Below, in pieces: positions 1 to 16,651 of a stretch of 18,747 bases of DNA. The stretch comes from Clostridia bacterium (GTDB lineage: Bacteria > Bacillota_A > Clostridia > Oscillospirales > CAG-272), in assembly GCA_017452945.1 (NCBI GenBank), contig JAFTLD010000065.1, positions 1-18,747 on the forward strand, in the 5' to 3' direction. The position numbers were made by a program, and so were the translations under genes. The notes under the pieces were generated by a model. It saw nothing but the letters and a program-made list of their open reading frames with translations. It made no database searches and was not told the DNA's origin. Positions within the stretch are counted from its first letter, which is position 1. Each line of letters starts with the position of its first letter.

Positions 1-255
1 CAAGCCGTTCTCGTTGACAATTTCAATTTTTCCGCAAACGCGACACGAATAAAACGAATAACCGCCTTTTTCCGCGTTCGGTTGATCGGGATAGTCATGC
101 GGCCCTTGCTCTGCAAGCTGTTCACCGCACTCGGCACAATACTGCACGTGTTGGCAGTCTGCACCGTCAGGCACATGCTCATGCACCTGCTCATTATCAT
201 TACAAGCTGCCAGCATACATGCCAAAAGCATGCATGTTAACACTATTTTTTTCAT
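1..255 (-). CDS. Cys-module lipoprotein (partial, 3' end off the left edge)
   Basis: The reading frame opens with ATG at 255 and is still open at base 1, giving 85 visible residues. The N-terminus is a lipoprotein signal: two lysines, a hydrophobic stretch, then lipobox LAAC with the lipidated cysteine at residue 18. The likely location is the outer face of the membrane. The exposed part has C34, C40-x2-C43 and C71-x2-C74. It shares DYPDxPxxEKGxYSxYxC with the C-terminus of the neighbouring pilin at 258-944, so the two domains are clearly related. Only 2 nt separate its ATG from the upstream stop, and I see no good Shine-Dalgarno, which suggests translational coupling. The function is unknown. 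A surface partner or anchor for the pilin and giant protein is an inference from the shared module. Confidence 0.75.
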   Translation of the reverse strand, partial: MKKIVLTCMLLACMLAACNDNEQVHEHVPDGADCQHVQYCAECGEQLAEQGPHDYPDQPNAEKGGYSFYSCRVCGKIEIVNENGL

Positions 256-257
256 AG

Positions 258-944
258 TTAGTCAATAGGTACGATGACAGAGCCGTCAGAGCTCATAATT
301 TTGATTTGGCTGCATCCGTCAGTTTCGCAAACATAATAACTATATTTGCCTTTTTCATACGTGGGGGTGTCAGGATAGTCATGATCAGCAAGCGGCTGTT
401 CCTGAATGTTCTCTTTGCCACACTTGGAGCACTTATACTTGATATATCCAGCGCGCTTACAAGTTGAATCTACTTTTGTTATTTCTGAATACTCATGGTC
501 TGTTTCTTGTGTACAGCTATTATCACCATTATTGGACTCATCCAGGTCTTCTTTGTTCTCAGGCATAGACTCAATTTCATCCTTGAATCCCTCCCCCTTG
601 AACTCCCAATCGCCGACAGCATCATAGATCTCCTTGATGCTCTCATGCGTGGGATAAGAATACAGAACCTTTTCTCCGGTGGAGGGATCTATCACCCACA
701 AACCGATATCCTCCGGACCTTTGACACCATGTTCAGAAACAACGACGGAATCCAATCCAAGCTGATTTTCAATGGCATAAAGCTCTGCAAAGTATGTCAA
801 ATTCGACAGATACTCAAAATCCGCTGCATCGTTTGCGCGATCAATATAAATAGCAAAGCTTGTCACAGCGACCGCAGCAAGGATCGCCATAATCGCTATT
901 ACGACAATCAGTTCGACCAGCGAAAAACCTTTATTATTCTTCAT
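258..944 (-). CDS. Type IV pilin-like protein with C-terminal Cys-repeat module
   Basis: This 228-aa protein starts with a class III prepilin leader, MKNNKG, followed by FSLVELIVVIAIMAILAAVA. By family knowledge, prepilin peptidase cuts after G6, F7 becomes the N-methylated N-terminus, and E11 is the conserved Glu5 of the mature pilin. Residues 7-30 form the hydrophobic helix. Residues 40-120 are a modest globular region, and 120-143 are an acidic linker rich in Asp, Glu and Asn. From residue 144 there is a Cys module (C144, C162, C172-x2-C175, C206, C211) that resembles units of the 2429-aa protein encoded upstream and the lipoprotein just downstream. A pilin head carrying this module is the odd feature of the gene. 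GAGAGG lies 5 nt before the ATG. The pilin call is firm; the partner role is inferred. Confidence 0.9.
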   Translation of the reverse strand: MKNNKGFSLVELIVVIAIMAILAAVAVTSFAIYIDRANDAADFEYLSNLTYFAELYAIENQLGLDSVVVSEHGVKGPEDIGLWVIDPSTGEKVLYSYPTHESIKEIYDAVGDWEFKGEGFKDEIESMPENKEDLDESNNGDNSCTQETDHEYSEITKVDSTCKRAGYIKYKCSKCGKENIQEQPLADHDYPDTPTYEKGKYSYYVCETDGCSQIKIMSSDGSVIVPID

Positions 945-1053: not shown

Positions 1054-4000
1054 TCATTGCTGATTAGACGTCATTTCTTCAATTTGGTTGACAGCTTCGC
1101 CAAGTTTGAGCAAGCTCACCAGCATTTGGACATACTGTTTTGTCTTTACACGAGTTTCTGTATTGGTTTCACCGCTGACAGTGTAAACTTTACCCGTCTC
1201 CGGATTTATTTCTTCAGTAAAGTGATAGATAGAATAAGTCAGATATGCGTGCATACCATACTTGAACTCAGGCGTTTCGATGACTGTTGTACCATCAGAC
1301 AGGGTAATCACCATTTTCACGATGGTGTCTGCCTTGGCAATATCGCTTGCGGGAACCGGATACATTGCATAGTAGCGATTTTCTTTATCTCCCCTGACAT
1401 CAATACCCGAGTCAGTATATTCGCCAAGCGAATCACCGTTCTTGTCTGTTACAATAATTTTTGCCGACTTCGGAGTAACACCTGTAGGAAGACCGGTCAT
1501 TTCAAATTCATAACGCAAACTATACTCTTCCTTGAACTGAACGTTAGCGCCTACCCAAGTAAATTCGATATTGCCATACTGTTCCGATTTACGATCCGGA
1601 ATATTGGAGCTTGCGAAGCTCTTGATCACCTGATCCGTATAGTTTTGGAAATCCCAATCACTCGGATCTTCATTCTCGAAGTAAACCTGTACAGTCTTAC
1701 CATAGTTCAGCATTGCAGTAATTGCCTCTTCCTGCGCCTCACCGTCATAATCACCAACGTTTTCCTCAAGATAATTCTCAAGTGCTTGTTCATAAGCAAT
1801 CAGCACACTGTCAATGGTCTTCACGGGTACTCCGTTGTAACTCACCGTAATCTTAACGTTGTCGCCACCCTGCGTGATCTGTGCTGCAGAGAGATCAATG
1901 CTTACAAACCACATCATAAGCGAATCGTCAATCTTTTCCAGCGTCTTCTCTTCACCGCCAAATGTAACGGTAGGCTTATGAGCATCATCAAGAGCATCCA
2001 CGTAAAGGAACAGGTCAACCGTCATGGTCTTTTCAGAGTTGGCCTGATCGTAACTCACAGACATCATGATCGCACCGTATTTCACGCTGTTTACTTTTGA
2101 AACCTCATAAACGGTAAACTCGGTCGTAGTCTCGTCAATCGGAGCCTTGGTCCAAACCTCGTATGCGGGAATGGCTTCGCCATTCTCGGTAAAGCTCCAT
2201 CCGACGTATTCCAGATCAAGTACGTTAGAAGTAGAGTAGTTCAGCCAGAGGTACTGACCGTAAGTGTAGCCCTTTCTGACAGTCTCATTGCCCCAGCGGT
2301 CAACGATGGTCACGTCGTAGGTACGAGCCACAACGTCGTACTTTTCGTCGCATCCGGTGCACTGCTTCCAAGATTCTCTTCTGTCGTAGTATCTTTGCTC
2401 GGAGTAGACGTGCTCCCCTGTTGCATCAACGTAGGCATCAACGTAGCTGTGGCCGCATTCCTCGCGCTGACAGGTATGCGTCGTGTAACCCTGCGTCGAG
2501 CAGGTCGGATCGGTTACAACAACCTTGTAGTTATGACCGGGAGAAGAAACCACGATCTCAGTTACCTCGGTATTGCCGTTTTCGTCAGAAAAGCTCTTCT
2601 GGCATGCAGTACAATACCAATACTCGATGTTTCCGTCCGTGGTACATGTCGGAGAAACAGCCTCAACATGCGTCAGCGTGCCGGCATGGTTAGTAGTGGG
2701 GATCTCCACTTCAACTTCAATCTCCACATACTCGTCGCCATCATCCGAGAGCAACCAGCTGTCATAAAATTTAGCCGTATGAACCGCTAATCCGTTTTCG
2801 TAACATGTTACAGGCGTAACCGTCTCTTTTGTAACAGTAAAGTTTTTCTCACTGGCCTCTGCTCTCTTATCATGCTTGCCACAGGAGCTTGTGCCAATAA
2901 CAGTACAAGTTAGGAAATCCTCAGACCACTCAACCTCGACTGTCCACGTGTGCTCACAGATAGTTTCCTTACAAGTATCAATATCACAGATGTTGTCATT
3001 ATTTTCATCTCTGTGATTGATCGCAGGTTGATTGGGATCCGTTATAGTAACAACATCACCACAACCGCAAGTATAAGTGATATATCCGTTATCATGACAT
3101 GTGGGAGGCGTGGGCACACCATCATCATAATCATGTCCGGGCGCGGTAAGAGTTGTGGTTTTTTCATCACCGCAAACATCACACGTTTCAACCTTGTAAC
3201 CATCCTCGGTACAAGTAGCATTTTTACTATCAGTCACTACATAGCTGTGATTGCCTGTTGCAGGATCAACAACACTTTCGCGGCTGAGCTCTGCCCCACA
3301 TTCCTCAACAGAACAGTAAACTACGCTCTCGTAAGAACCGTCTGCACCACAGGTCGGCGCTACCGGATTCTCACGAATTGCTCCACCGGGAGTGTGCTTT
3401 TTCTTTTCAATGGTCTTTGTCTCTCTGCTGATTTCTGTCTGACCACCCTCAGCATCCACACAGCCTGTAACAGTACAGTAATGCACCTCTTCATAAGAGC
3501 CTTCTGCATAGCAGGTAGAATCGCGCTTGTTCTCAACTTGCATCGGGCCTTTGGTATGCTCTAACTTCGGAATGGCCTTCTCAACTCTGCTTGTTTCGGC
3601 TTTACAAACTGTGCAATAAGTCACTTCATCACGGGAACCCATTTTGAAACAAGTAGCATCCTGAATATTTTCATAAACAGTTTCACCCGGCTCGTGATCA
3701 AGTTTCTTAATCTCATTTCGAGTACTGCTAAGCTCTGTTTCACATTCGGTGCAATAAACTACCAAATCATAGTAACCTTCTGCACTACAAGAGGCTTCCA
3801 CTCTGTTTGCTTCGACAGGCGCGGCAGGATTATGCTCCAGTTTATCATTCTCTTTATAGGTGGAATAATCACAACGAGAACAAGTCACATATGCATCCCA
3901 ACCAATTGCGGTACAGGTAGCTTCCTTAGCACTATGAGCAACCTCATCATGCCCAAGAGCCCCGATAACCGTATATGTGGTATAGTCGCAACGAGAACAA

Positions 4001-7000
4001 GTCTGATATGTTTCCCAACCGGATTCGGTGCATGTTGCCGCCTTGCCGTCATGACTGATCGCATCATGCCCCAAAGCACCAATGGCCTTATAGGTGGTAT
4101 AATTACAACGAGTGCATGTCGCATATGCTTCCCAACCGCCTTCCGTACAGGTTGCTGCCTTGCCTTCATGCTCTACGCGATCGTGCGCATTAGCATCAAT
4201 GTCCAGCGTTTCATCCTCCACAGTCGTCTCGGTTTGTCCCTGCTCATCCTTGTAATACGTATCGCATCTCTCGCAATACCAGTATTCGTTGTTGCCTTGC
4301 GTTGTACATGTTGATTCCACAGCTTCGATATGCTTCATATCATGCCCCAGCGCAGGCTGTAATACCGCCTCTTTTATAGGAACACGACAGTCTGAGCACC
4401 ATGTACCTCCCACATATCCCTCTGCGGTACACGTGGGGCCTGTATGCTCCATCGGAACCTCAGTATGGGTAGGTGTAGGTCCGGTCAACGCTTGCAAGGT
4501 AGTCGGAACCTTTTCAGGCGTAAAAGTAAAATAGTTCTCGCAAACTTTACAGTAATAATGTGCCGCAACGCTCGGTTTCAGTTCTGTTGCAGTATGAACC
4601 GCATCCTGAGCAGCAAACGCTTCGTACTCGTGATCCAATGCTTCTGTAATCACATGTCCGCATTTGGTGCAAGTTTGGGGCGTCATACAAGTGGCAGGAT
4701 CACCGGGAATGTGCTCAGTACAGCCGTAACCGCACGCACACTCACCGTCTGCATTCCAATTGCCATGGTCTGCCGTGGTACCATCTTGCACTGCACCGCA
4801 CGCGCATTTTTTCCAATGCTGCGTTTCATCATACCCATAAGACGTATACGCATGTGCAGCTTCACTGCCCTTTTCTCCGCAGCCATTGTTACATACATAC
4901 CAGTGCGTGGTTTCACCCTTTGTCAGAGTAGTGCTCCATGCATGCTCAAGAGCAGAAATCGCTCCACCGCCCGTGGTGTGTCCGCACCCGTTTGCGCAAG
5001 TGTATACAGCCTCCTTACCGGGCACCTCACACTGTGCTTCAACCTTTTCGGAGGTCATCTGCATATCATGCCCCAACGCAGAAATCTCTTCATAGGTTGT
5101 GTAATCGCATTCCGAGCAATACTCATAAGCATCCCAACCAAATTGGGTACAAGTTGCAGCCTCCGCATCAACCTGTGTCAGGGAGTGCGCTTTCTTATCA
5201 ACTTCCTCGGTGTAGGTGTGACTATTGTCGTTTTGACAAACGTAAGTCTTTTCTCCCTTTTCGGTACAAGTGGGCGGTGTGGTTACCGTACCAACATAGT
5301 TATGCTTCAACGCAGGGATTTCCGTGTAGGTGGTGTAATCACACTTGGTGCAATACTTATAAGCATCCCAACCAACCTCGGTACAAGTGGCAGCCTGAGC
5401 ACCGACCTGTTCTAAAGCATGCTGTACAGGAAGCGTCTGCGCGTTTTGGGTAGTAGATTGCGTGCAAGCTTGATCTGCAAAGAACTCTCCGCACACCTCA
5501 CAAGTCCAGTATTCATTATTACCGGTCTCTGTGCAGGTGGGCGCCTTTGCTTCAATCTTACTCGGCTTGTGATTGCCAAACGTACCGACAACCTTCTTGG
5601 TATCACTGTACGCACATGTTTCAAACTCACCGCTTGCGGTATAAATCGTATAACTGTTGGTTCGGCAATCGCCTTCCGTGTAAGACGGATCGCTTTCTAA
5701 GTCCCCGGATGTCTTTGTGTCCTTACACCGGTTACAATAAATGGTTACCGTGTACTTGGTGCCGTCATCATTGAATTTAACAGTAGCCGTGTAATTGTGT
5801 CCGAGAGCATCAACCGTAATGTTTTGTTTGCTGAGTTCAGTTCCGCAAGCAGTACAGTTTACAACTGAATCATAAGAGCCCGGAGCAGTACATGAAGCGG
5901 CATTATAATTCTTTTCTGTTGCTGTACCCGAGGTATGCCCCGGTGCGGTAAGTGTCTCGGTATTGGAGTAACCGCAAGCACAGGTAACGGTCTTCCAGCC
6001 GTCAACAGTACAAGAAGGAGCTTGACTGTCTGTCTGGGTTTCCGTATGATCGCCTAATACCCATCTGCCATGATCGGCATTGTACGTATAGGTGCCGGTA
6101 GTACCAGCAGTGAGATACGATCCGTCAGCATTTCTCAACTTTGCAGTCGAAACTGTAACTGCAGTGTAAGTATCATTATTTTTATATTGATATGTAGTTG
6201 CATCTCCGCACGCTTGCAAAAGAATCTTACCACCGTTTAAGCCGCTTATATTAGCATATCTTCCACCTGTGGATTGATAACCGCACACGCTACACGTAAG
6301 ATTTCCATCTTCATCATTTGCGTAAATACCATCACAAGCAACATACACAACCTTATTCGACGAGTCAAGGGTTCTTCTGTATTTAGTACAATTTTGATCT
6401 GCCGAGATAGAGGCCTCTGTCTTACTGGTATACAAATATCCAGCACTTATATCAAATGTTCCCTCAACAATAATTGTGGCATCTGTAAGCTGGCGTACAA
6501 TCGGTGCAGCCAAATTTCCTTCATGGTTTGAGGCAACATAGTGCAGCGGATTTGTATCACCTTTTCTATTCACGACATTCAAAGTGTCTCCGCTACCGTT
6601 TTTTTCTTCCGAGTCATCAAACACATAATATTCTCCGGCCCATTGATCCAGGTCGTATACGTAAATATTTACTCCTGACGACACATTAACAATCGCATCT
6701 TTTGCTATCACAAATTCCGAACCGGGGAGAAACACCATGTCTTGAGAAATCGTAGTGGTTCCACTATTTACACTAACCAAAAGATGATTAGAAATAGGTA
6801 ATACATAATCTCCGGAATTTATCGAAATTCCAGTGGTCGCAGGAATATTCAATGCTGACATAGCCAAATCGCCATTGATATCGATCCGCAGACGATTTTC
6901 TTCCTCAATATAGTCTTTAATAATAGTGCCGTTTTTCAGATTAAACATACCGTTTGATCCTATAAAGGCAATTTCGGTTGTTACGACACCATAGAGACTC

Positions 7001-8343
7001 GTCAAATCCATCGAGGTAACAGCATTTATCGTAGCACCGGCTTCAATGGTCATGGGAACTTCTACGTTTTGAACATAATACTGACTAACGGGGAATACTT
7101 TTTGACTGTTTTTCAGCATTCCTAATGATGCCTTACCACCACGCCAATCACGAATTATAAAATCTTCATAAACGGTACTACCATTTTTCGCAAAAACACT
7201 ACCGGAACCGGTAATATATCCCCACACATAAAGACATCCACCGCTATTAACGGTAATATTACTACCCTCATTCATTTTTACGCAGCCTAACGGCCCAACC
7301 GGTCTACCATTATAATACTGTTGTTGACTATGAGAACCGGAAATGCTCATCACACCGTCCACAACAATATTCGAACCTTCCGACAACGTTAATGTTTGAT
7401 AAAACGAAGGCTTTGTACCACCAGAAATAATTGTGGGACGAGTAGTACATAACGTATTTGCCGAATCATATGGAATCAGAAACGTTACGCCGTCGGGAAT
7501 CGTATATGTTCCCGAGGGTAGTGTGCCACTACTGATAAGCACAATTGTTTTTATTTTTGCAGACTGATCTGCTGTTGTTATCGCACTGTTCAAATTATCA
7601 AAGAGTTCGGAGCCTACCATAAAGTGAGGTGCAGTTGAGTATACAGCCTTGATTGTAGCAGTTACCTTACTAGGCACATAGGCAAATTCAGGATCCCTTG
7701 ATAAAATTGAATTGTCAGAAGTATCAATCCAAGCAACAAAGTTGTTTTTTGAAGCCGTAAATGTCGCGCCATCACCTGTCATCGAAATAACATCACCGGA
7801 CGCAACGGCATTTCCACCGGAAGTCACACTCCCCATTGTTGAGTCATACTGTACGGTAATATCAGCAGCATCTATTACCGGTGTATATGAAAAGTCTTTC
7901 AATACCAGTTTGTTTTCAGTTGCGTTCTTAGCGGTTGTAATAGTAATGGTTATAGAGTCACCTGCATTCATGGTCTTTCTAAAAGGAGAATCCCAGTTGC
8001 TGCTGACACCGTCAATAACTAATTGATTGACAGTTGTCTTCTCCCAAGAAAACTGAATTATTGCTTTTGTATCACCACTGTTCGTCACAGTGATTGTTGC
8101 AGTTTTAGCAGAGGCGCCAATGCCAAAAATACCGGCGGAACCTTTTGCGGTAGTTGTAATGACGCCATCTGTCATAGAGGTATTCGTAGCTCCTGCAACA
8201 CCAACATTAACCCCTTCTACCGGAGTATAATTCCCAGATGTTGCTGCATAAACTTGCAAAGTGGGGAAAACAAGCAAAAGTATCCCCGTCATCAGCACGA
8301 GGAAAAGCATGCCTATTTTCTTGCGCATTTTTTTAGTTTGCAT
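1054..8343 (-). CDS. Giant secreted Cys-repeat surface protein (2429 aa)
   Basis: The ATG at 8343 is preceded by AAGGAGG with 7 nt spacing. Residues 1-33 are a Sec signal peptide (basic start, long hydrophobic core, VYA before the cut). Residues 34-160 are beta-rich. Residues 161-236 resemble a divergent InlB-type B-repeat. Residues 238 to about 700 are Gly/Ser/Thr/Asn-rich with short beta-like repeats, suggesting a beta-helix. Residues 765-2005 hold about 25 units of 30-60 residues built on A-T-C-T...G(W/Y)...Y..C..C...(A)LGH(D/N). Each complete unit offers three Cys and often a His, which could bind a metal or form disulfides. Residues 2006-2429 are a non-repetitive C-terminal region. I see no LPxTG motif, C-terminal membrane helix, SLH or cell-wall-binding repeat, so the anchoring mode is unclear. 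It lies in an operon with pilin-like genes. An adhesin or matrix role is inferred; no enzyme motif was seen. Confidence 0.88.
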   Translation of the reverse strand: MQTKKMRKKIGMLFLVLMTGILLLVFPTLQVYAATSGNYTPVEGVNVGVAGATNTSMTDGVITTTAKGSAGIFGIGASAKTATITVTNSGDTKAIIQFSWEKTTVNQLVIDGVSSNWDSPFRKTMNAGDSITITITTAKNATENKLVLKDFSYTPVIDAADITVQYDSTMGSVTSGGNAVASGDVISMTGDGATFTASKNNFVAWIDTSDNSILSRDPEFAYVPSKVTATIKAVYSTAPHFMVGSELFDNLNSAITTADQSAKIKTIVLISSGTLPSGTYTIPDGVTFLIPYDSANTLCTTRPTIISGGTKPSFYQTLTLSEGSNIVVDGVMSISGSHSQQQYYNGRPVGPLGCVKMNEGSNITVNSGGCLYVWGYITGSGSVFAKNGSTVYEDFIIRDWRGGKASLGMLKNSQKVFPVSQYYVQNVEVPMTIEAGATINAVTSMDLTSLYGVVTTEIAFIGSNGMFNLKNGTIIKDYIEEENRLRIDINGDLAMSALNIPATTGISINSGDYVLPISNHLLVSVNSGTTTISQDMVFLPGSEFVIAKDAIVNVSSGVNIYVYDLDQWAGEYYVFDDSEEKNGSGDTLNVVNRKGDTNPLHYVASNHEGNLAAPIVRQLTDATIIVEGTFDISAGYLYTSKTEASISADQNCTKYRRTLDSSNKVVYVACDGIYANDEDGNLTCSVCGYQSTGGRYANISGLNGGKILLQACGDATTYQYKNNDTYTAVTVSTAKLRNADGSYLTAGTTGTYTYNADHGRWVLGDHTETQTDSQAPSCTVDGWKTVTCACGYSNTETLTAPGHTSGTATEKNYNAASCTAPGSYDSVVNCTACGTELSKQNITVDALGHNYTATVKFNDDGTKYTVTIYCNRCKDTKTSGDLESDPSYTEGDCRTNSYTIYTASGEFETCAYSDTKKVVGTFGNHKPSKIEAKAPTCTETGNNEYWTCEVCGEFFADQACTQSTTQNAQTLPVQHALEQVGAQAATCTEVGWDAYKYCTKCDYTTYTEIPALKHNYVGTVTTPPTCTEKGEKTYVCQNDNSHTYTEEVDKKAHSLTQVDAEAATCTQFGWDAYEYCSECDYTTYEEISALGHDMQMTSEKVEAQCEVPGKEAVYTCANGCGHTTGGGAISALEHAWSTTLTKGETTHWYVCNNGCGEKGSEAAHAYTSYGYDETQHWKKCACGAVQDGTTADHGNWNADGECACGYGCTEHIPGDPATCMTPQTCTKCGHVITEALDHEYEAFAAQDAVHTATELKPSVAAHYYCKVCENYFTFTPEKVPTTLQALTGPTPTHTEVPMEHTGPTCTAEGYVGGTWCSDCRVPIKEAVLQPALGHDMKHIEAVESTCTTQGNNEYWYCERCDTYYKDEQGQTETTVEDETLDIDANAHDRVEHEGKAATCTEGGWEAYATCTRCNYTTYKAIGALGHDAISHDGKAATCTESGWETYQTCSRCDYTTYTVIGALGHDEVAHSAKEATCTAIGWDAYVTCSRCDYSTYKENDKLEHNPAAPVEANRVEASCSAEGYYDLVVYCTECETELSSTRNEIKKLDHEPGETVYENIQDATCFKMGSRDEVTYCTVCKAETSRVEKAIPKLEHTKGPMQVENKRDSTCYAEGSYEEVHYCTVTGCVDAEGGQTEISRETKTIEKKKHTPGGAIRENPVAPTCGADGSYESVVYCSVEECGAELSRESVVDPATGNHSYVVTDSKNATCTEDGYKVETCDVCGDEKTTTLTAPGHDYDDGVPTPPTCHDNGYITYTCGCGDVVTITDPNQPAINHRDENNDNICDIDTCKETICEHTWTVEVEWSEDFLTCTVIGTSSCGKHDKRAEASEKNFTVTKETVTPVTCYENGLAVHTAKFYDSWLLSDDGDEYVEIEVEVEIPTTNHAGTLTHVEAVSPTCTTDGNIEYWYCTACQKSFSDENGNTEVTEIVVSSPGHNYKVVVTDPTCSTQGYTTHTCQREECGHSYVDAYVDATGEHVYSEQRYYDRRESWKQCTGCDEKYDVVARTYDVTIVDRWGNETVRKGYTYGQYLWLNYSTSNVLDLEYVGWSFTENGEAIPAYEVWTKAPIDETTTEFTVYEVSKVNSVKYGAIMMSVSYDQANSEKTMTVDLFLYVDALDDAHKPTVTFGGEEKTLEKIDDSLMMWFVSIDLSAAQITQGGDNVKITVSYNGVPVKTIDSVLIAYEQALENYLEENVGDYDGEAQEEAITAMLNYGKTVQVYFENEDPSDWDFQNYTDQVIKSFASSNIPDRKSEQYGNIEFTWVGANVQFKEEYSLRYEFEMTGLPTGVTPKSAKIIVTDKNGDSLGEYTDSGIDVRGDKENRYYAMYPVPASDIAKADTIVKMVITLSDGTTVIETPEFKYGMHAYLTYSIYHFTEEINPETGKVYTVSGETNTETRVKTKQYVQMLVSLLKLGEAVNQIEEMTSNQQ
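2329..6051 (-). repeat. Array of about 25 Cys/His protein repeats
   Basis: This is the part of the giant gene encoding residues 765-2005. By eye I count about 25 units, most with C-x(8-12)-C-x2-C followed 10-20 residues later by a Gly-His, Glu-His or similar step. Some units are degenerate; one near residue 1000 lacks the tidy spacing. The flanking N- and C-terminal regions contain few Cys. No Pfam name is assigned because I cannot be sure of one from sequence alone. Confidence 0.8.
3829..4179 (-). repeat. Three tandem 117-bp (39-aa) repeat units
   Basis: Units at 4063-4179, 3946-4062 and 3829-3945 are exactly 39 codons each and start at homologous codons. The first two share 28 of 39 residues, including the pattern KAATCTE.GW, TC.RC.YTTY and IGALGHD. 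The third has diverged more (KLEHN end). They are the most regular stretch of the Cys array and look like a recent in-frame duplication. Confidence 0.85.
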
Positions 8344-8438: not shown

Positions 8439-9653
8439 TTAGTTACCGGTTGCCTGGCCAAGCATGCCAACAAGGTCATCGTTTGCAAATCCGTTTACAA
8501 GAATATCAGATACAGCACCTTCGTTGCTAGTAACATTATTGTTGATCATGCCCATGGAAGCAAGATAGCCATCCAAATCAGCCTGCGCCTCTCCCTTGCC
8601 ATTATCATTCTTAATGTAGGCCTTAAATCCTGCATCGTTGTCGATGGCGACCAATACATCCGCGGGATCAGAGGGAACAGTTAAACCGTTTCTCTCTGCA
8701 TAAGCAGTGTACAATGCATATGCCATAGAAGCCTGTGCCAAACCATTGTTCGAATTGTCCTTAACAGTATCAACAATCTGTGACTTGGAATCGTCTGCAC
8801 CAAGAACAGTCAAAATATTATCGGATACATTATTCGAATTCTGAGCTGCATTAAGAACCGCATTGTTAGAAATAATTTGGTTGTATGCGTCATTATAGAG
8901 CGCAGAACCCTCGGATCTATCTTCGTCAGCCGAATACTTACCCTGAGCTATCAAAAGATCCATTTTTTGGTTAACCATTCCACGAACAGTATTGGCAAAC
9001 TCTGTCTTCCCTTCAGCAGTGCTTATATCAATACCGAGATTAGCTGCAAGCGCAGCAGCAGCACCGTCGCCATTTAACATTTGATAGAGAGAACTGTCAG
9101 TATCAACTTCTGTCAACAAAGAAGATGCCAAGTTACTGACATAGTCAACTTTACCCAGCAAATCTTCAGGCTCCATTTCACCAAAAGCACTTCCCTTCAG
9201 TGCCTCAAGTTGTTCACGAGTCACAGTAATCGTACCCTTATCGCCATAGTTCAAGGTGATTTCAGAAGCAGTCGCAAGGTCAACAAATTCGTGCTTGCCA
9301 GCGTCAAAAATAAGAGAGGTAATATTGATAAACTTTTCATTCTTCATATCACCGAAGTGCAGAATGAAAGATTCTACAATCTTAGCGTTATCATCACCGT
9401 TTACCTTTACATTCTTAACGGTCATGTTTTCCATATCCCACTCAGCAGCTGTAATGTCGCTGATATCAACACCGTTTTCGAGGCAAGCAGCGTTGAGGAT
9501 ATAGTTAATGTTGTTCAGCAGCTCTGCATCCGAAGCTTCGTTTGCCTTCGTAATGAAGTGCGCAAAGGTCGGAATTGCGATAGCCGCGAGGATCGCCATG
9601 ATCGCGATCACGACGATCAGTTCGACCAGCGAAAAGCCTTTATTGTTTTTCAT
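8439..9653 (-). CDS. Type IV pilin-like protein, long form (404 aa)
   Basis: The N-terminus is the same class III prepilin signal as in the other two pilins: MKNNKG, then FSLVELIVVIAIMAILAAIA, with a predicted cut after G6 and the conserved Glu at residue 11. Mature pilins are usually 100-200 aa, so the C-terminal part of about 360 residues is unusually large. It looks mostly helical and polar, with many Asn, Asp and Ala, one Cys near residue 57, and no Cys module. I do not recognise the C-terminal domain. AAGGAG lies 11 nt before the ATG. A minor pilin or tip protein that carries a separate domain on a pilin stem is plausible but inferred. Confidence 0.88.
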   Translation of the reverse strand: MKNNKGFSLVELIVVIAIMAILAAIAIPTFAHFITKANEASDAELLNNINYILNAACLENGVDISDITAAEWDMENMTVKNVKVNGDDNAKIVESFILHFGDMKNEKFINITSLIFDAGKHEFVDLATASEITLNYGDKGTITVTREQLEALKGSAFGEMEPEDLLGKVDYVSNLASSLLTEVDTDSSLYQMLNGDGAAAALAANLGIDISTAEGKTEFANTVRGMVNQKMDLLIAQGKYSADEDRSEGSALYNDAYNQIISNNAVLNAAQNSNNVSDNILTVLGADDSKSQIVDTVKDNSNNGLAQASMAYALYTAYAERNGLTVPSDPADVLVAIDNDAGFKAYIKNDNGKGEAQADLDGYLASMGMINNNVTSNEGAVSDILVNGFANDDLVGMLGQATGN

Positions 9654-9741
9654 AATAATCGTTTCTCCTTAAAAATTTGTGTGTATATTTTCGGAACTTG
9701 TCCTAAAATATCAAAATTTGTGTTTCTGTTTTACGCAAAAC

Positions 9742-9784
9742 ACAGCGAAAACCGCAACGGTCTCCCCCGTTGGGCCTTCGCTGT
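9742..9784 (-). terminator. Nested hairpin after the first pilin: possible attenuator
   Basis: On the minus strand ACAGCGAA pairs with TTCGCTGT (outer 8 bp) and CAACGG with CCGTTG (inner 6 bp), followed by GTTTTGC. The short U-run makes it at best a partial terminator. It sits in the 185-nt gap between the 134-aa and 404-aa pilin genes. There it could lower expression of the downstream genes relative to the small pilin, as is common after a major structural subunit gene. Confidence 0.5.
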
Positions 9785-9792
9785 ATCCGTGG

Positions 9793-9824
9793 GAATCCGT
9801 CTATCTACGAATCAGATAGGATTC
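9793..9824 (-). other. Second hairpin just after the first pilin stop
   Basis: GAATC at 9793-9797 pairs with GATTC at 9820-9824, and CTATCT at 9801-9806 with AGATAG at 9814-9819, with a small bulge between them. On the minus strand it lies 15 nt after the stop codon of the 134-aa pilin, directly ahead of the hairpin at 9742-9784. It has no U-tract of its own. A role in 3' end stability is possible. Confidence 0.45.
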
Positions 9825-9838
9825 TCGGGGTATGTAAT

Positions 9839-10243
9839 TTAATTAGGTATGGGGGTGGCAGTGATTGCACCATCAGTTGCAATGGTGATGCTATGTGCCT
9901 CATACTTCTTGAAGCTGTAGTCGAAATCAATAACACTGTCAAGAGAATACGTATCAACTGCCTTTTCATCAACTGTTCCGTAAATCACAGTAGTGCCCAG
10001 CTTAACTTCTGTAACCGCGCCATCAACGGTGGTGATAGTAATAGCTTCGTTCAGTTCCTTGCCATCTTCGATCAGAGCGAGCTCAAGTGCATACTCAAGA
10101 TCATTTACAAAGCTCTCATCAGAAGCCTTGTTAGCCTTATCGATAAAGGTTGCGAAAGTGGGAATCGCGACTGCTGCCAGGATCGCCATGATGGCGATCA
10201 CAACGATGAGTTCTACGAGCGAAAAGCCCTTGTTGTTTTTCAT
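9839..10243 (-). CDS. Type IV pilin-like protein, short form (134 aa), probable major subunit
   Basis: This is the first gene downstream of the invertible promoter. It has the class III prepilin leader MKNNKG and the helix FSLVELIVVIAIMAILAAVA, with Glu at residue 11 (Glu5 of the mature form). The cleaved product would be 128 aa, typical for a pilin. The head (about residues 45-134) has beta-strand-like stretches and no Cys, so it lacks the disulfide loop of many Gram-negative pilins. AAAGGAG lies 10 nt before the ATG. It is first in the operon, has a classical pilin size, and is followed by two hairpins, all of which suit a major subunit; that ranking is inferred. No assembly ATPase, platform protein or prepilin peptidase is in the window, so it would depend on machinery encoded elsewhere. 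Confidence 0.9.
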   Translation of the reverse strand: MKNNKGFSLVELIVVIAIMAILAAVAIPTFATFIDKANKASDESFVNDLEYALELALIEDGKELNEAITITTVDGAVTEVKLGTTVIYGTVDEKAVDTYSLDSVIDFDYSFKKYEAHSITIATDGAITATPIPN

Positions 10244-10311
10244 TTTTGAAAATCTCCTTTAAAATAAAATTGTTGTTTTTTCACGGTGACATAATGGGAG
10301 TTATGTTGCAT
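10240..10311 (-). CDS. Possible 23-aa upstream ORF in the pilin leader
   Basis: An ATG at 10309-10311 opens a 23-codon frame that reads through the left inverted repeat and the pilin Shine-Dalgarno. It ends in a TGA that overlaps the pilin ATG as ATGA. The A of the ATG is the first base inside the invertible segment; after inversion the same codon would become TTG. A weak GCGGGA lies about 5 nt upstream. It would be translated only from the ON promoter. The peptide is basic and unremarkable, so if real it probably acts by translational coupling. It could also be chance. Confidence 0.3.
   Translation of the reverse strand: MQHNSHYVTVKKQQFYFKGDFQK
10284..10310 (+). repeat. Left inverted repeat of the switch
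   Basis: It matches the reverse complement of 10545-10571 at 26 of 27 positions; the one mismatch is at 10288. It contains the 18-bp core ACATAATGGGAGTTATGT. The arms ACATAA and TTATGT are inverted copies of each other around TGGGAG. This resembles the two recombinase-binding arms and crossover spacer of a tyrosine-recombinase site, and the asymmetric spacer would force inversion between opposed sites. Confidence 0.92.
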
Positions 10312-10342
10312 AACTATCCCGCTCTGCCTGTGAATACGCCTC

Positions 10343-10371
10343 ATTGTATCATCCGGATTTGAAAAATGCAA
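10343..10371 (-). promoter_or_regulatory. Extended -10 promoter inside the invertible segment
   Basis: On the minus strand TTGCAT (10366-10371) and TACAAT (10343-10348) are separated by exactly 17 bp, and the -10 is preceded by TGA, giving an extended -10 (TGATACAAT). Transcription would start near 10336 and run left through the left repeat into the 134-aa pilin gene, with a leader of about 93 nt. It is the best sigma-A promoter I found in the segment. No comparable one faces right, so the orientation shown is ON. Confidence 0.75.
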
Positions 10372-10420
10372 TAGGCTTTGCACAAAATGCACTTTTTATT
10401 ACATGAAAAGACAAGATTAG

Positions 10421-10493
10421 AGCACGACAAAACAACCTTTCGGAACAGCTTTTTTTGTAGCTGCGACGAAAGGCTTTTTGCCGTGCTTTTTTT
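10421..10493 (+). terminator. Rightward terminator inside the invertible segment
   Basis: Three nested stems on the plus strand are AGCACG/CGTGCT, CCTTTCG/CGAAAGG and CAGCT/AGCTG, ending in seven Ts (10487-10493). A compact GGC-TTTTT-GCC alternative is also possible. In this orientation it faces away from the pilin operon. After inversion it would face the operon and stop read-through from the recombinase gene, making OFF tight. Confidence 0.65.
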
Positions 10494-10544
10494 ACTCACA
10501 TGACAGTATTTCATACACATGACACGCATGCCCGGTTCAAACTT

Positions 10545-10571
10545 TGCAACATAACTCCCATTATGTGACCG
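10545..10571 (-). repeat. Right inverted repeat of the switch
   Basis: Read on the minus strand it carries the same 18-bp core as the left repeat with no change. The only difference (position 10567) lies outside the core. It is 47 bp from the recombinase stop codon. Confidence 0.92.
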
Positions 10572-10574
10572 ACT

Positions 10575-10599
10575 CCGATGCGCAGGCATCGGTTTTTTT
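10575..10599 (+). terminator. Rightward terminator outside the right repeat
   Basis: CCGATGC and GCATCGG form a 7-bp stem with a GCAG loop, followed by seven Ts on the plus strand. Nothing on the plus strand to the left needs terminating in the present orientation. When the segment is inverted, its promoter would fire directly into this site, so it would protect the recombinase gene from antisense transcription. Confidence 0.85.
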
Positions 10600-10618
10600 G
10601 TTGCGATTTTGTATTCTG

Positions 10619-11461
10619 TTATAGGATCAAGTGCATTTTTTGCATCTTTTTCAGGTGCTCCGTGCCTGTTGTGATGATATAGATGCGCGTGGTGTCGATG
10701 CTTGCGTGGCCGAGAATGTCCGCAAGCTTGGCAATGTCCTTTTCCATATTATAAAAGATGCGCGCGAACAGATGCCGCAGATTGTGCGGAAACACCTTGC
10801 TTGGCAACACGTCGGCTTGCTTGCAAAGGGATTTCATCTGCCTCCATACTTGATTTCGGCTGACAGGCTTACCGCTGCCCGTGACAAAAATGCTCCCCGC
10901 ATGGATTTTTTGCGTTTTGGCATACCGCACTAACTTTTTCCTGAGTGCCGATACGATCAGAATGCGGCGATTTTTGCCCTTACAGTTCACGGTCGCCTCT
11001 CCCCTTTGCACTGCCTCGACTGTGATATACTGCAGCTCGCTGACGCGAATCCCCGTGCCGCAGATGGTCTGCAAAATCAGGCTCAACCGCTCGTTTTTTC
11101 GCTGATTTGCCGCAGCGATCAATTGGTAGTATTCATCGCGCGTCAGCTCCTTTTGTTCCTCGCAAAAAATTTGCCTTTGCAAGGCAAACCGCTTTATGAC
11201 AAGCTCCCCCGCACCGCAAAAACGCAAAAACGCATTGAGCGCGGCAATCATGGAATTGGCGCTTGCCACCGCATAATGCTTGCCAAGGTAGGCTTTGTAG
11301 TCAAGGACGGCTTGCTTATCGATCTCGCGATCCCCCACATACGCATAAAACGCACGCACGTCGCGCAAATATTTCTCCACGGTTGCCGCGCTTTTTTCGT
11401 TTTCTTTGAGATAGGACGCAAACGCCTGTATCTGATCTCGATCCGTTATCATTCGCTCCAT
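10619..11461 (-). CDS. Tyrosine recombinase, probable invertase of the adjacent switch
   Basis: This 280-aa protein is a complete XerC/D-type recombinase. Residues 8-85 are the helical core-binding (SAM-like) domain. The catalytic domain from about 105 carries R139 (GTGIRVSEL), a beta-hairpin lysine (K161 or K163), H226-x2-R229, H252 (LGH) and the nucleophile Y261. All the usual catalytic residues are therefore present. AAGGAG lies upstream at a normal distance and a promoter is seen at 11488-11516. It is a single gene with no excisionase, relaxase or phage gene beside it, and its stop is 47 bp from one of a pair of inverted repeats with Xer-like cores. A local DNA invertase fits this better than an element integrase. 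Whether it, or a recombinase elsewhere, acts on these repeats is inferred. Confidence 0.92.
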   Translation of the reverse strand: MERMITDRDQIQAFASYLKENEKSAATVEKYLRDVRAFYAYVGDREIDKQAVLDYKAYLGKHYAVASANSMIAALNAFLRFCGAGELVIKRFALQRQIFCEEQKELTRDEYYQLIAAANQRKNERLSLILQTICGTGIRVSELQYITVEAVQRGEATVNCKGKNRRILIVSALRKKLVRYAKTQKIHAGSIFVTGSGKPVSRNQVWRQMKSLCKQADVLPSKVFPHNLRHLFARIFYNMEKDIAKLADILGHASIDTTRIYIITTGTEHLKKMQKMHLIL

Positions 11462-11487
11462 TTTGTCTTCTCCTTTTTTGGTTTTTA

Positions 11488-11516
11488 CTTATATTTTACC
11501 AAAAATCCGAATACAA
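11488..11516 (-). promoter_or_regulatory. Probable promoter of the recombinase gene
   Basis: TTGTAT (11511-11516) and TATAAG (11488-11493) are separated by 17 bp on the minus strand. Transcription would start about 20 nt before the ATG at 11461, leaving room for the AAGGAG ribosome binding site. The -35 is weak, the -10 good. Confidence 0.55.
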
Positions 11517-11533
11517 TTCATGCAATAACGCAT
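11489..11533 (-). CDS. Possible 14-aa leader ORF
   Basis: GAAGGAG stands 4 nt before an ATG that opens a 14-codon frame, MRYCMNCIRIFGKI, ending in TAA. It overlaps the putative recombinase promoter, so both can be used only if transcription starts further upstream. The C-x2-C start resembles that of zinc-ribbon proteins, so it may be a gene remnant. Low confidence. Confidence 0.2.
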   Translation of the reverse strand: MRYCMNCIRIFGKI

Positions 11534-11552
11534 ATAGCTCCTTCGCTAATTC

Positions 11553-11565
11553 ACACGTCACGTGT
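11553..11565. promoter_or_regulatory. 13-bp palindrome upstream of the recombinase
   Basis: ACACGT-C-ACGTGT is a perfect inverted repeat with a single central base. It lies about 37 bp upstream of the recombinase -35 and could be an operator or a small protein-binding site. No regulator gene is adjacent. Confidence 0.35.
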
Positions 11566-11573
11566 TATATACC

Positions 11574-11616
11574 AAAAACACCGTCATGGCTAAGATTTAC
11601 TTGCCTTGACGGTGTT
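11574..11616 (-). terminator. Terminator upstream of the recombinase
   Basis: AACACCGTCA (11577-11586) pairs fully with TGACGGTGTT (11607-11616), with an inner GGC/GCC pair in the loop. On the minus strand the stem runs into TTTTT (11574-11578). It would end a minus-strand transcript from 11617-11770, where no protein gene is seen. Confidence 0.65.
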
Positions 11617-11770
11617 GGTCTTTGTGTTGGTAAGGATCATCATAGGTCGATTATTTTAGTAGGTTTTGATAAGTTTCGACTTGCCAAGAGCTGTGCGCAC
11701 CCGTTATATCAATGAAAGCCTAAAATCGGGCTTTTTTATGAAAAATTGCACAAAAATACAACAAAATAAT
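11617..11770 (-). other. Gene-free stretch between two terminators; possible small RNA
   Basis: The gap from 11462 to 11846 has no protein gene beyond the doubtful 14-codon ORF. In this part the minus strand has TGATATAAC (-10 at 11703-11708, extended type, no good -35). It then has a GTGCGCAC palindrome and a GTCGA/TCGAC pair, and leads into the terminator at 11574-11616. A transcript of about 120 nt starting near 11696 could be a small RNA. It could equally be a remnant of something larger. Confidence 0.25.
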
Positions 11771-11814
11771 AGAGAGGAAACAGGCGGCAGCGAAGTGCCG
11801 CTTGTTTCCTCTCT
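11771..11814 (-). terminator. Terminator of the hydrogenase operon
   Basis: A 19-bp stem with one G-U pair (11771-11789 with 11796-11814) and a 6-nt loop lies 32 nt after the stop of the last hydrogenase gene. The minus strand continues TATTATTTTGTTG and the plus strand TTTTACT, so it may act in both directions. Confidence 0.88.
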
Positions 11815-11846
11815 TTTACTAAAAAGCAATTATGACAAATATAGTA

Positions 11847-13277
11847 TTACTTCAGCAGTGAAACCGCGTCGCCGATGGTCTTCTCAAGAGCCTCTCGGCC
11901 GTATTTATCGACTTCTGCCTTGTTCTTTTCTCCATGGGTCAGGCAACCTGCACCACCAATACAGCCACCGATACAAGCCATACCCTCAATAAAGTTGCCG
12001 TCCAGCACGCCCTTATTGAGCTTGAGCAATGCCATGCGACAGGCTTCAATGCCGTCGCATACTACGGGCTTGATCTCAAAATCGATATTCTGCTCCTTCA
12101 TTGCCTGGACTGCCGCATCGGTCAAGCCGCCGCTTCTTGCAAAGATACGACCGAAATAGGACGCGTTATCCAGCACGCCCTCCTCAAAGGTAGAAAGATC
12201 GAAATCGCGGCTGTCAAAGAGCGCCTGAAGCTCCTCGAAGGTCAGCACGGTATCCACCCAAGGCTTAACCTCCTCAAGCTGTGCCTCCGCTTTTTTTGCA
12301 GTACACGGGCCAATGAAGATGACCTTGGCATTGGGTGTCGTTTCCTTGATATATTTTGCAAGTACCGCCATGGGTGACATATTATGTGAAATATGCTCCA
12401 CAAGGTTCGGGAATTGCGACTTGATGTACTGTACGAAGGCGGGACAGCAGGAGCTGGTCAGAAGTCCCTTTTCGGAAAGCTCCTTTGCTTCTGCCATTGC
12501 GACCATATCTGCACCCAGTGCTGCTTCGATAACGTCATGGAATCCCAGCTTTTTCAAGCCCGTGATGACCTGACCGAGTTTCGCGTAAGAGAATTGACTC
12601 GAAATGGAGGGGGCAACAACGGCATAAACCTTATAGTTTCCGCCGCGCGTATTGCGCTCGCTCTTCTTGAGAATATCAATGGCGTTGACCATAAAGGACT
12701 TGTCCATGATCGCACCGAAGGGACACTGATATACGCAAGCTCCGCATTGAATGCACTTGGAGTTATCGATCTTGGCCGCTTTATGCTCGTTCATTGAAAT
12801 AGCCTTGACCTTGCAGGCGTTCTGGCAAGGGCGCTTACGGCCAACAATGGCGGTAAAGGGACAGACCTTTGCGCACGCACCGCACTCGCGGCACTTGGAT
12901 TTATCAATATGTGCGACGTGGTTGGAATCAAAGGAGATCGCGCCGAATTTACATACGTCCTCGCAACGGTGCGCCAAGCATCCGCGGCAAGCATTGGTGA
13001 CCTCGTATCCTCCAACGGGACACTCATCACAGGCAATGTCAATGACCTCAATGATATTGGGGTTGTTCTTATCACCGCCCATGGCGATCTTGACTCGCTC
13101 ACCCAGTATTGCTCTTTCTTTGTAGACACAGCAGCGCATGGTCGGTTCGTTGCCCGGTACGATCTGCTTCGGAATATCCATGATGTTCTCAAGCAGCGTA
13201 TCGTTCCATGCAAGTCTTGCGACCTCTCGCAAAACCTTATATTTCAAATGCTGTACCTTTGTATCAAATTTACGCAT
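11847..13277 (-). CDS. [FeFe] hydrogenase, group-B-like (476 aa)
   Basis: The H-cluster domain has all three signature loops: TSSCCPAF (C277, C278), FIGPCTAKKAE (C325) and GMACIGGCIGGAG (C435, C439). The second loop has GPC where catalytic group A enzymes have MPC. The N-terminal half is an array of iron-sulfur ligands: C97-x2-C100-x4-C105-x3-C109, C129-x2-C132-x2-C135-x3-C139, an extra C151/C155 pair, and C175-x2-C178-x2-C181-x3-C185. C49-C50 and C83-x2-C86 add further Cys. Loop sequences and domain order fit the group B family, whose physiological role is poorly known. H2 evolution, uptake or signalling are all possible. It is last in an operon with a sensory hydrogenase and phosphatase. 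Its AAGGAG overlaps the upstream stop codon and spacing is 11 nt. Confidence 0.92.
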   Translation of the reverse strand: MRKFDTKVQHLKYKVLREVARLAWNDTLLENIMDIPKQIVPGNEPTMRCCVYKERAILGERVKIAMGGDKNNPNIIEVIDIACDECPVGGYEVTNACRGCLAHRCEDVCKFGAISFDSNHVAHIDKSKCRECGACAKVCPFTAIVGRKRPCQNACKVKAISMNEHKAAKIDNSKCIQCGACVYQCPFGAIMDKSFMVNAIDILKKSERNTRGGNYKVYAVVAPSISSQFSYAKLGQVITGLKKLGFHDVIEAALGADMVAMAEAKELSEKGLLTSSCCPAFVQYIKSQFPNLVEHISHNMSPMAVLAKYIKETTPNAKVIFIGPCTAKKAEAQLEEVKPWVDTVLTFEELQALFDSRDFDLSTFEEGVLDNASYFGRIFARSGGLTDAAVQAMKEQNIDFEIKPVVCDGIEACRMALLKLNKGVLDGNFIEGMACIGGCIGGAGCLTHGEKNKAEVDKYGREALEKTIGDAVSLLK

Positions 13278-13288
13278 ATGACGTCTCC

Positions 13289-14461
13289 TTAAAAATAACT
13301 TACCTTAATGCGCTTGCCCATTTTCTTTAAGCAAGCAGATAACTCCTCTACCAAATTCATTTTGATATTGAAGTTGATGGGAAGGTCGGGATTCTGATGG
13401 GCGGGGTTTACCGCTCTGCCCACGTAGAAATTGATGTCCGTCGCTTCCTCAAACAAAAGTCGGCTGATCATCGATGCGCCGTCCTTTTGGAAATTCCATT
13501 GCTCATACAGCGCATTGTCACCAAGATAATCCTTGGCATACTCGATGACTCTGTTCATGGTGATAACACCCTCGGTGACGAGATCCACTCCCTCAATGGT
13601 TGCAATGGGAGGCACGTCGCTGCGCTCAAAGCTCAGCGTTGCCCTGACCGGCTTTCCAAGATATTTGGACGCGATCGACGACGTGGTACCGCCGCAGATA
13701 ATGTGCTTCCCTTCCTTGGAGAAGAACAGCGACATCATGCGGTTGGCGTCATCACGATTGGAGGGCGGGCCAAACAAAATGTTCATCGGCTCTCTCTTGC
13801 GGATCTTGACCACGCAAGCGGTGGTATCGTCACCCGGTTTGTGACCGTAGAGCTTATCGCACTCGTCCACAAGCATGGTAGAAAGGTTCTTGGCCGTATA
13901 TCCGCCTGCAACCAGTGCTTGCATATATTCGGCAATATCCTCTCTCTTCCAGCCAAAATTGTATTTTCCGCCCATACCTGCGTGGGGACAGCCGTCGCTC
14001 ATTGCGACAAAGACGTCATCCTCCTGCAGCTTGATGGTGGATTTATAAATTTTCTTACCGCCGATATTCATCTCGGTCTTGGGATAATCGTAAACATGAT
14101 AATCTCTTATCAGAATGACATGAGGATTATCGTACTGAATGATCTCGGCTATTTGGTTGTGGAGCAAGTGAATAATCGTAAACGTGGAATATGCCACGCC
14201 TCGCACCGAGCACACGGGCAAGGTTGCGGCTATGGTAGACACACATTCCTCAATTGGAAGCCCTGCCGCCATCATGGTTGAGATGATCTTGGCGGTCAGA
14301 GTAGACAGGATACTCGCCTTGACACCCGAACCAAGACCGTCCGCAAGTACGATCACAGTAGAATTTTCATTTTCCTCTATGACGTCTACATGGTCGCCGC
14401 AAAGCTCTTCGCCGACGTGATTGATGCTTTTATATCCGATATCTGCACACAAATCATTCAT
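13289..14461 (-). CDS. SpoIIE-family PP2C serine phosphatase (390 aa)
   Basis: Residues 1 to about 220 form a PP2C/SpoIIE phosphatase domain with the metal-binding motifs ADG (D41-G42), SDG (D156-G157) and GDD-T (D211-D212). D23 is a further candidate. These proteins dephosphorylate regulatory partners, often anti-sigma-factor antagonists, using Mn or Mg. Residues 225-390 are a conserved-looking extension I do not recognise, with a Gly-rich CGGTTSS stretch near 257. No transmembrane or sensor domain is present. Its ATG lies inside the end of the sensory hydrogenase gene (8-nt overlap, ATGAATGA), so the two are translationally coupled and probably work as sensor and output. No STAS or RsbW-like partner is in the window. 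Group C3 sensory hydrogenases are known to be phosphatase-linked, which fits this pair. Confidence 0.88.
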   Translation of the reverse strand: MNDLCADIGYKSINHVGEELCGDHVDVIEENENSTVIVLADGLGSGVKASILSTLTAKIISTMMAAGLPIEECVSTIAATLPVCSVRGVAYSTFTIIHLLHNQIAEIIQYDNPHVILIRDYHVYDYPKTEMNIGGKKIYKSTIKLQEDDVFVAMSDGCPHAGMGGKYNFGWKREDIAEYMQALVAGGYTAKNLSTMLVDECDKLYGHKPGDDTTACVVKIRKREPMNILFGPPSNRDDANRMMSLFFSKEGKHIICGGTTSSIASKYLGKPVRATLSFERSDVPPIATIEGVDLVTEGVITMNRVIEYAKDYLGDNALYEQWNFQKDGASMISRLLFEEATDINFYVGRAVNPAHQNPDLPINFNIKMNLVEELSACLKKMGKRIKVSYF

Positions 14462-16145: not shown

Positions 16146-16405
16146 ATCCCTTCGTTTTTGACGGCTTCAAGAATATACTTTCTGAAAAATTCTCTGAAGT
16201 TTTCGCGCGTGATACCAACGTGTACGTCGTCGTTGACTTGAACGGTTACGCCGACACGGTTGCACTTCCCGATGCAGAAGCTGCCGGAAAGTACGACGTC
16301 ATCTTCAATATGATGCTCCTTGATCGCACTCTCAAGCAGCTCTACGATATCCTGTGAACCCTTGAGGTGGCAAGAGGAGCCAACACAGATCTGAACAAAC
16401 AGCAT
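16142..16405 (-). CDS. Thioredoxin-like [2Fe-2S] ferredoxin, second copy (87 aa)
   Basis: This small NuoE-like protein has C7-x4-C12 and C44-x3-C48 (CVGSSC and FCIGKC), the ligand pattern of thioredoxin-like [2Fe-2S] ferredoxins. The family passes electrons to or from hydrogenase and NADH-dehydrogenase-type partners in the cytoplasm. It starts 3 nt after the upstream paralogue's stop with AAAGG as ribosome binding site, and its TGA overlaps the GTG of the sensory hydrogenase. No NuoF-like flavoprotein gene is present, so it is likely a dedicated electron carrier or redox relay for the hydrogenases encoded downstream. Confidence 0.88.
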   Translation of the reverse strand: MLFVQICVGSSCHLKGSQDIVELLESAIKEHHIEDDVVLSGSFCIGKCNRVGVTVQVNDDVHVGITRENFREFFRKYILEAVKNEGM

Positions 16406-16408
16406 ACT

Positions 16409-16651
16409 TTATACCTTTGCGAGAATTTCTTTTGCAAAGAAATCGCCCACGTTTTCGGGAGAGACCGAGTGGAAGGAATCGTTTACCGATACGCAAACGC
16501 CCTGCTGGCACTTGCCCATGCAGAAGGTGCCGCCAAGCTCCACCTTATCTCCGATTTTATGTTCTGCAATCAGATACTGCAGCTGTTCAACAACCTGACG
16601 GGATCCCTTGATATGGCAGGAGCTACCGATACAAACCGTAATTTTAAGCAT
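16409..16651 (-). CDS. Thioredoxin-like [2Fe-2S] ferredoxin, first copy (80 aa)
   Basis: It has the same fold and ligand pattern as its neighbour: C7-x4-C12 (CIGSSC) and C44-x3-C48 (FCMGKC), with SSCHxKGS conserved after the first pair. The two are diverged paralogues from an old tandem duplication and keep identical Cys positions. AGAGG stands 8 nt before the ATG. It appears to be the first gene of the redox-sensing operon, although no convincing promoter is visible in the 85-nt gap upstream, so read-through from adhE and the kinase gene is possible. Confidence 0.88.
   Translation of the reverse strand: MLKITVCIGSSCHIKGSRQVVEQLQYLIAEHKIGDKVELGGTFCMGKCQQGVCVSVNDSFHSVSPENVGDFFAKEILAKV

Follow-up and report, generated by a model that had tools for sequence, protein, structure and literature searches.

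A recombinase-linked promoter element, almost certainly an inversion switch, upstream of a pilin/giant-protein operon in a Clostridia bacterium

Introduction

Pilus genes under an invertible segment are known from the fim switch of Escherichia coli, in which the segment controls chaperone-usher pilus genes, and from Moraxella, in which the pilin coding DNA itself reportedly inverts. The locus described here, located in a DNA stretch of 18,747 nucleotides that was analyzed as a whole (hereafter, the window), resembles both in this arrangement; fim, however, belongs to the chaperone-usher type, and in Moraxella it is coding DNA that changes orientation.

Recombinase-linked invertons have already been published for Clostridia. 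In the passages compared, inverton group 139 and invertase group 35 (PMC11892184) account for 33 invertons, 32 of them in Clostridia, near tyrosine-type recombinases; the inner lengths of the two examples printed are 205 and 227 bp, and orientation shifts were measured in culture. The main text of that report contains no mention of spacers, Xer, pilins, TasA or signal peptidases, and refers to terminators only as future work. Group 139, from gut Clostridia, shares its hosts and its recombinase linkage with the window family, in a comparison based on the main text, and may well include the window switch family. In a further report, as far as the passages compared extend, 14 of 15 inversion-positive Firmicutes samples were Clostridia (PMC5903667). 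The pilin cargo, the spacer rule and the insulation described below are absent from the passages compared. In the open-access literature, screened by title and abstract opening, neither a phase-variable pilin/giant Cys-repeat operon nor this spacer rule was found. The window switch belongs to a known class of device, with a new cargo and a well-resolved design.

Three other systems serve for comparison, each from passages of the cited report. In Clostridioides difficile, several switches depend on RecV, and flagella are turned OFF via Rho acting on the leader RNA (PMC7446863). Like the window, the RecV switches combine a tyrosine recombinase and inverted repeats with surface and motility genes; in contrast to the flagellar switch, the promoter and terminators of the window lie in the element. 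The parallel with C. difficile that was drawn in a first-pass annotation of this DNA is therefore a loose one, which holds for the recombinase and the inverted repeats but not for the several switches served by RecV or the Rho-based OFF state. The E. coli dif site contains GCATAA-TGTATA-TTATGT (PMC3025954); its arms match the site of the window family at 11 of 12 positions, and both have a 6-bp centre. The dif site of XerC/XerD is, however, a single site for chromosome dimer resolution, whereas the window family has two symmetric sites around a promoter. Finally, Xer1 of Mycoplasma agalactiae adjoins its locus, and disruption of xer1 locks the phase (PMC2268961); its inversions join silent genes to one promoter, whereas the window device would flip the promoter itself.

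Repeats, promoter and recombinase of the window

The features of the locus are as follows.

1..255, minus strand: beginning of a Cys-rich, lipoprotein-like protein, truncated at the window edge
258..944, minus strand: pilin C (228 aa, one Cys-repeat unit)
1054..8343, minus strand: giant secreted-type protein (2429 aa, 92 Cys, 14 C-x(6-14)-CxxC units)
8439..9653, minus strand: pilin B (404 aa)
9739..9787, minus strand: strong hairpin in the gap from pilin A to pilin B, its T tail weak (ends read by eye)
9839..10243, minus strand: pilin A (134 aa), with N-terminal methylation motif GFSLVEL and an AGGAGA ribosome site at 10253-10258
10284..10310, no strand: left inverted repeat, core ACATAATGGGAGTTATGT at 10289-10306
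10311..10544, no strand: predicted invertible segment, 234 bp between repeats and 242 bp between cores, inverted relative to L001 (a locus of the related genome G001)
10343..10371, minus strand: promoter TTGCAT-17-TGATACAAT, facing the pilin operon (ON)
10421..10493, plus strand: internal long hairpin with T7, opposed to the promoter (z -5.9); flipped, it would face the operon
10545..10571, no strand: right inverted repeat, dif-like core ACATAACTCCCATTATGT at 10549-10566
10575..10602, plus strand: terminator-like hairpin with T run just outside the right arm, aimed at the recombinase; it would stop the flipped promoter
10619..11461, minus strand: gene of a Xer-like tyrosine recombinase, the presumed invertase (280 aa; Phage_integrase, E 2.3e-26)

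The two arms, of 27 nt each, are complementary at 26 of 27 positions (96%) and have 234 nt between them. Each contains a dif-like, symmetric 18-bp core, ACATAA-N6-TTATGT; both cores are exact, their spacers match, and the single arm mismatch falls outside the core. A chance origin of the repeats was rejected, since a 25-base part of the repeat had no match at up to three mismatches in 200 dinucleotide-preserving shuffles of the window, and a reversed-pattern control in a 98-genome scan (see below) was likewise empty. The exact window repeat was not found in viral contigs, and an Rfam scan of positions 9600-12000 gave no match.

The promoter reads on the minus strand, with a -35 element TTGCAT at 10366-10371, a 17-nt spacer and an extended element TGA-TACAAT whose -10 lies at 10343-10348, and is directed at the pilin gene that starts at 10243. 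Its -35 is weak, matching the consensus at 3 of 6 positions, which accounts for its absence from a generic promoter scan.

The recombinase gene has an intact frame and ends 47 bp from the right arm. Its product carries both integrase fold domains (PF00589 and PF02899), and R139, K163, H226, R229, H252 and Y261, which we take to be the tyrosine recombinase catalytic set, are invariant in an alignment of 18 rows. The NCBIfam models of XerA, XerD and XerC were among its best matches, with scores for the curated XerA, XerC and XerD models of 141, 114 and 121 bits, all below cut-off; the protein is Xer-like and is not filed as XerA, XerC or XerD. Among solved structures, the nearest chains belong to XerC-like, XerA and XerD proteins. 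Of 295 genomes in the family of G001, 81 contain the recombinase at E <= 1e-70. The first-pass annotation had described 27-bp repeats (26/27) around 234 bp, an extended -10 promoter aimed at the pilin operon in an ON state and a complete tyrosine recombinase 47 bp from one repeat. The repeat computation and shuffles, the position of the promoter and its orientation toward pilin A, and the frame, Phage_integrase domain and invariant residues of the recombinase bear out these points in turn. The symmetric cores, the internal hairpin, the terminator-like site beyond the right arm and the presence of the device in relatives are additions to that annotation.

Paired sites and spacers in related loci

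An alignment query of species genomes yielded at least 561 recombinase relatives among 592 candidate stretches, of which the best 80 were kept; these are the closest part of a larger family, among the matches listed. A single-protein query of genome contigs confirmed no relative, whereas the alignment query succeeded. With the window, the set comprised 81 loci, of which 65 (64 relatives and the window) had more than 340 bp of DNA 3' of the recombinase gene. The shared core, ACATAA-N6-TTATGT, was first suggested by an inverted-repeat scan of these loci.

Most (61 out of 65) of the loci with sufficient downstream DNA contain the two-site device; the site pair was absent in L038, L044, L048 and L072. 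In all 61, the 6-bp spacers of the paired sites are exact reverse complements of each other, and the figure stays at 61 when the pair is chosen by its arms alone, blind to the spacer. Site pairs with exact arms and a distance of at least 150 bp number 60, and every one of them has matching spacers in inverted order. The spacers themselves vary widely, with 42 different sequences in the 61 loci, none of them palindromic. In background terms, strand exchange by a tyrosine recombinase requires matching spacers between the conserved arms. A pattern scan with free spacer in 98 genomes of the family of G001 returned 13 places in 12 genomes, at least three of them already within the first locus set, and the spacers matched in all 13; the reversed pattern gave no match in the same 98 genomes. 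Of 36 recombinase loci collected later, 16 were new and long enough, 16 duplicated the first set and four were too short; site pairs and matching spacers occurred in 16 of the 16 new loci. Since the loci share ancestry, all of these counts describe related sequences and not independent trials.

All 122 half-sites that point into the element are exact, while those facing outward vary slightly. The inward half-sites also show a stronger extension (T, G/A, T, A) than the outward ones in the 61 loci. Judged from this pattern, the two arms of the site may not be equivalent.

Additional copies of the site, in direct repeat and 30-62 bp from the main site, were observed on the recombinase side in L002, L003 and L004 and on the cargo side in L007, L025, L026, L031, L039 and L051; in L004 and L007, inversion seemingly took place via the outermost copies. 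Certain genomes hold the same spacer at several switches or sites, namely TGCGAA in G001 (L084, L085) and TTGTCA in G010 (L089-L092), so that cross-talk or larger inversions are possible there. The idea of a private spacer for every switch was dropped on account of these two genomes. In L032 the spacer is TGTATA, the centre of E. coli dif, a coincidence that was seen in one of 61 loci and is possibly due to chance. The Firmicutes-type dif pattern had no match at up to three mismatches in ten genomes, and the chromosomal dif was thus not located. A longer segment occurs at L001:10910-11427, with 515 bp between the cores; it carries a 48-bp inverted repeat on the promoter-distal side, perhaps a small inserted element.

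Orientation of the segment

The best promoter was located 20-75 bp from one segment end in all 61 loci (median 41), pointing toward the cargo in 23 (including the window) and toward the recombinase in 38. When the best promoter was scored without restriction, none of the 61 loci changed orientation; one margin was below 1. Among the 16 new loci, the promoter faced the cargo in three and the recombinase in 13. The promoter call agreed with the orientation of the whole segment in all 49 alignable pairs, 23 of them mutually inverted; these pairs were kept from 1830 on the basis of a length difference of at most 40, an identity of at least 0.62 and a difference of at least 0.08 between orientations.

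Two comparisons illustrate the inversion. L013, set against a 4-kb stretch of L012, is collinear over 2,892 bp (93.0%), inverted over 295 bp (98.3%) and again collinear over 217 bp (99.5%), and the breaks fall at the sites. For the window and L001, which carry the same pilin operon, the alignment runs collinear at 79% through the recombinase and the beginning of pilin A, but inverted, at 71%, over about 210 bp of the segment. Related genomes therefore hold both orientations. One fixed orientation among relatives had been named in the first-pass annotation as refuting its reading, and the outcome was the opposite, with the reservation that the differences are between species or metagenome-assembled genomes, which can mix strains.

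Terminators around the promoter

In the gap that separates the stop codon of the recombinase gene from the first site, a short terminator-like hairpin directed at the recombinase was detected in 50 of 61 loci, as against 79 of 1220 in the shuffle control, by criteria of our own that were set after the window had been seen. The opposite direction was represented in none of the 61, and in the remaining 11 no gap terminator was seen. The new loci gave a similar picture (10 of 16 toward the recombinase, none of 16 opposite and six in which it was not seen). A promoter in the flipped orientation should therefore be stopped before it produces antisense RNA, whereas transcripts of the recombinase itself meet no such stop ahead of the element.

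Within the segment, 31 of 61 loci have, by the strict screen, a terminator that points against the promoter, and 10 of 61 have a co-directional one (shuffles, 16/610); in 30 of 61 no strict opposed terminator was seen. A lax screen, with 58 of 61 opposed and 45 of 61 co-directional and no shuffle control, did not discriminate and was replaced by the strict one. From their sequence the cassettes look self-insulated, provided that termination works as drawn.

Proposed mechanism and alternative explanations

Given the matching site pairs and the occurrence of both orientations (L012/L013, window/L001), the window element is almost certainly a working inversion switch, displayed in its ON state. 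We consider it very probable that the locus is a phase-variation cassette in which the adjacent recombinase flips a promoter segment of approximately 240 bp at spacer-matched dif-like sites, with the window ON. The Xer-like recombinase would act on two mutually facing sites and invert the DNA between them, the exchange depending on the same 6-bp spacer in both. When ON, the single outward promoter would drive transcription across the left site and into pilin A, extending at least partly to the remainder of the operon. When OFF, it would face the recombinase gene and give a short transcript that ends at the terminator flanking the element; the internal hairpin, by then facing the operon, would block read-through from the recombinase gene. 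What the sequences establish is the pairing of the sites, the agreement of their spacers, the natural occurrence of either orientation and the way the terminators point. Flipping within one strain, with expression following the orientation, would be the expected outcome.

The role of the neighbouring recombinase as the catalyst is the part of this proposal most open to an alternative. The segment may invert through an enzyme acting in trans, either the host XerC/XerD or the recombinase of another cassette, such that the neighbour is not the only or main catalyst. The resemblance of the site to E. coli dif, in 11 of the 12 arm positions and in the 6-bp length of the centre, would fit such an enzyme, as would the presence in G001 and G010 of at least two switches or sites with the same spacer, and RecV provides a precedent in serving several C. 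difficile switches (PMC7446863, in the passages compared). Against this, the sites directly follow the recombinase in 61 of 65 loci, so that linkage is tight, with the qualification that the loci were located via the recombinase in the first place. On balance we regard a trans-acting enzyme as unlikely, and the adjacent recombinase as the probable catalyst.

The two remaining alternatives concern the segment itself, and both were rejected. If it were a fixed remnant, old inversions would explain the differences between species, and flipping would have ceased in the window strain. The mismatch outside the core in one arm is compatible with such decay, yet the window cores are exact with matching spacers, the recombinase retains its frame and key residues, and close relatives differ in orientation; this explanation is quite improbable. 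Still less probable, to the point of being barely credible, is that the repeats are the ends or attachment sites of an excising or integrating mobile element, with inversion as a by-product. The cassettes do precede unrelated cargo, and the extra direct-repeat sites at some loci could allow deletion, but the exact-arm pairs noted above carry their spacers in inverted order in 60 of 60 cases, the natural difference that was found (L012/L013) is an inversion, and the outward-facing promoter occupies a near-constant place.

As the site, the spacer rule, the place of the promoter and the terminators can all be read from a comparison of loci, specificity and leak-tightness are directly testable. 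The spacer rule predicts which switches within a genome can cross-talk, and the layout offers a sequence-based ON/OFF test for metagenomes. If the spacer does serve as an address, several switches would run independently in one cell, and those with equal spacers would be wired together.

The pilin/giant-protein operon and other cargo

The prepilin motif PF07963 is present in pilins A, B and C. The single Cys-repeat unit of pilin C is of the kind repeated in the giant protein, and the signal sequence of the product of 1..255 suggests a lipoprotein. The giant protein had no Pfam or NCBIfam match. It was nevertheless rejected as a new family, as 147 matches at E <= 0.001 were obtained among 7983 scored; some of the 120 matches listed carry dockerin, SLH or enzyme domains.

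The eight window genes scanned include no assembly ATPase, platform protein or prepilin peptidase. In the relative G001, pilus assembly genes are located on another contig, apart from its pilin operons; the operon therefore probably supplies alternative subunits to a shared pilus machine. The hairpin that follows pilin A (-35.5 kcal/mol for 9715-9805, z -4.3) may cut short some transcripts, and owing to this strong hairpin, control of the whole operon by the switch is uncertain. For the window, the prediction is a mixed population, in which some cells make a pilus-like structure with a giant Cys-repeat protein and others do not.

Of the three pilin/giant-protein operons in G001, L001 has the switch, and two others (L093, L094) have none nearby. 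The latter two have the order pilin-pilin-giant-pilin, as in the window, and both recombinase and site are absent from the 14 and 13 kb around them, respectively. Pilin cargo was found in the window, in L001 (L096 being the same locus) and in L097/L126, in a scan that omitted L087 and L093-L095. In a third species, L126 combines the recombinase and a switch in the ON state with pilin B, a giant Cys-repeat protein at least 1555 aa long and an Lgt-like protein. The Lgt-like protein (prolipoprotein diacylglyceryl transferase) is encoded at L126:3567-4235 (E 3e-24); a similar one in the L001 operon, at 13508-14248, has an E of 7e-4, below cut-off.

Cargo was surveyed more generally in 97 mechanical ORFs, the first one or two after the switch at 52 loci, with those below 100 or above 1500 aa excluded and some spurious frames among them. 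These included 13 SipW-type signal peptidases, five camelysin-type proteins, four with BspA repeats, three with dockerins and two with the pilin motif, in addition to restriction-type, helicase, DegT and zinc-ribbon proteins. With such varied cargo behind the switch, the cassette is modular. The device described in the first-pass annotation is not confined to the pilin operon, since relatives carry it in front of many cargoes. Likely phase-variable systems in gut and rumen Clostridia would comprise SipW/camelysin-like, BspA-like, dockerin, restriction-like and pilin systems.

We advance, as a tentative generalization that may well prove too broad, that self-insulated Xer-type promoter switches are widespread in gut Clostridia, having common arms and a free 6-bp spacer as the address that sets independence or wiring, and that such a switch makes one of several paralogous pilin/giant-protein operons phase-variable, the others being otherwise controlled.

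Among the relatives of the recombinase and of the giant protein, P0017 and P0122 have longest contigs of equal length (31164), as do P0029 and P0127 (95560), a hint that the members of each pair share contigs. In the window, positions 11847-16651 are occupied by neighbouring genes of the iron hydrogenase type, with PAS and ferredoxin domains, that seem to have no connection with the switch.
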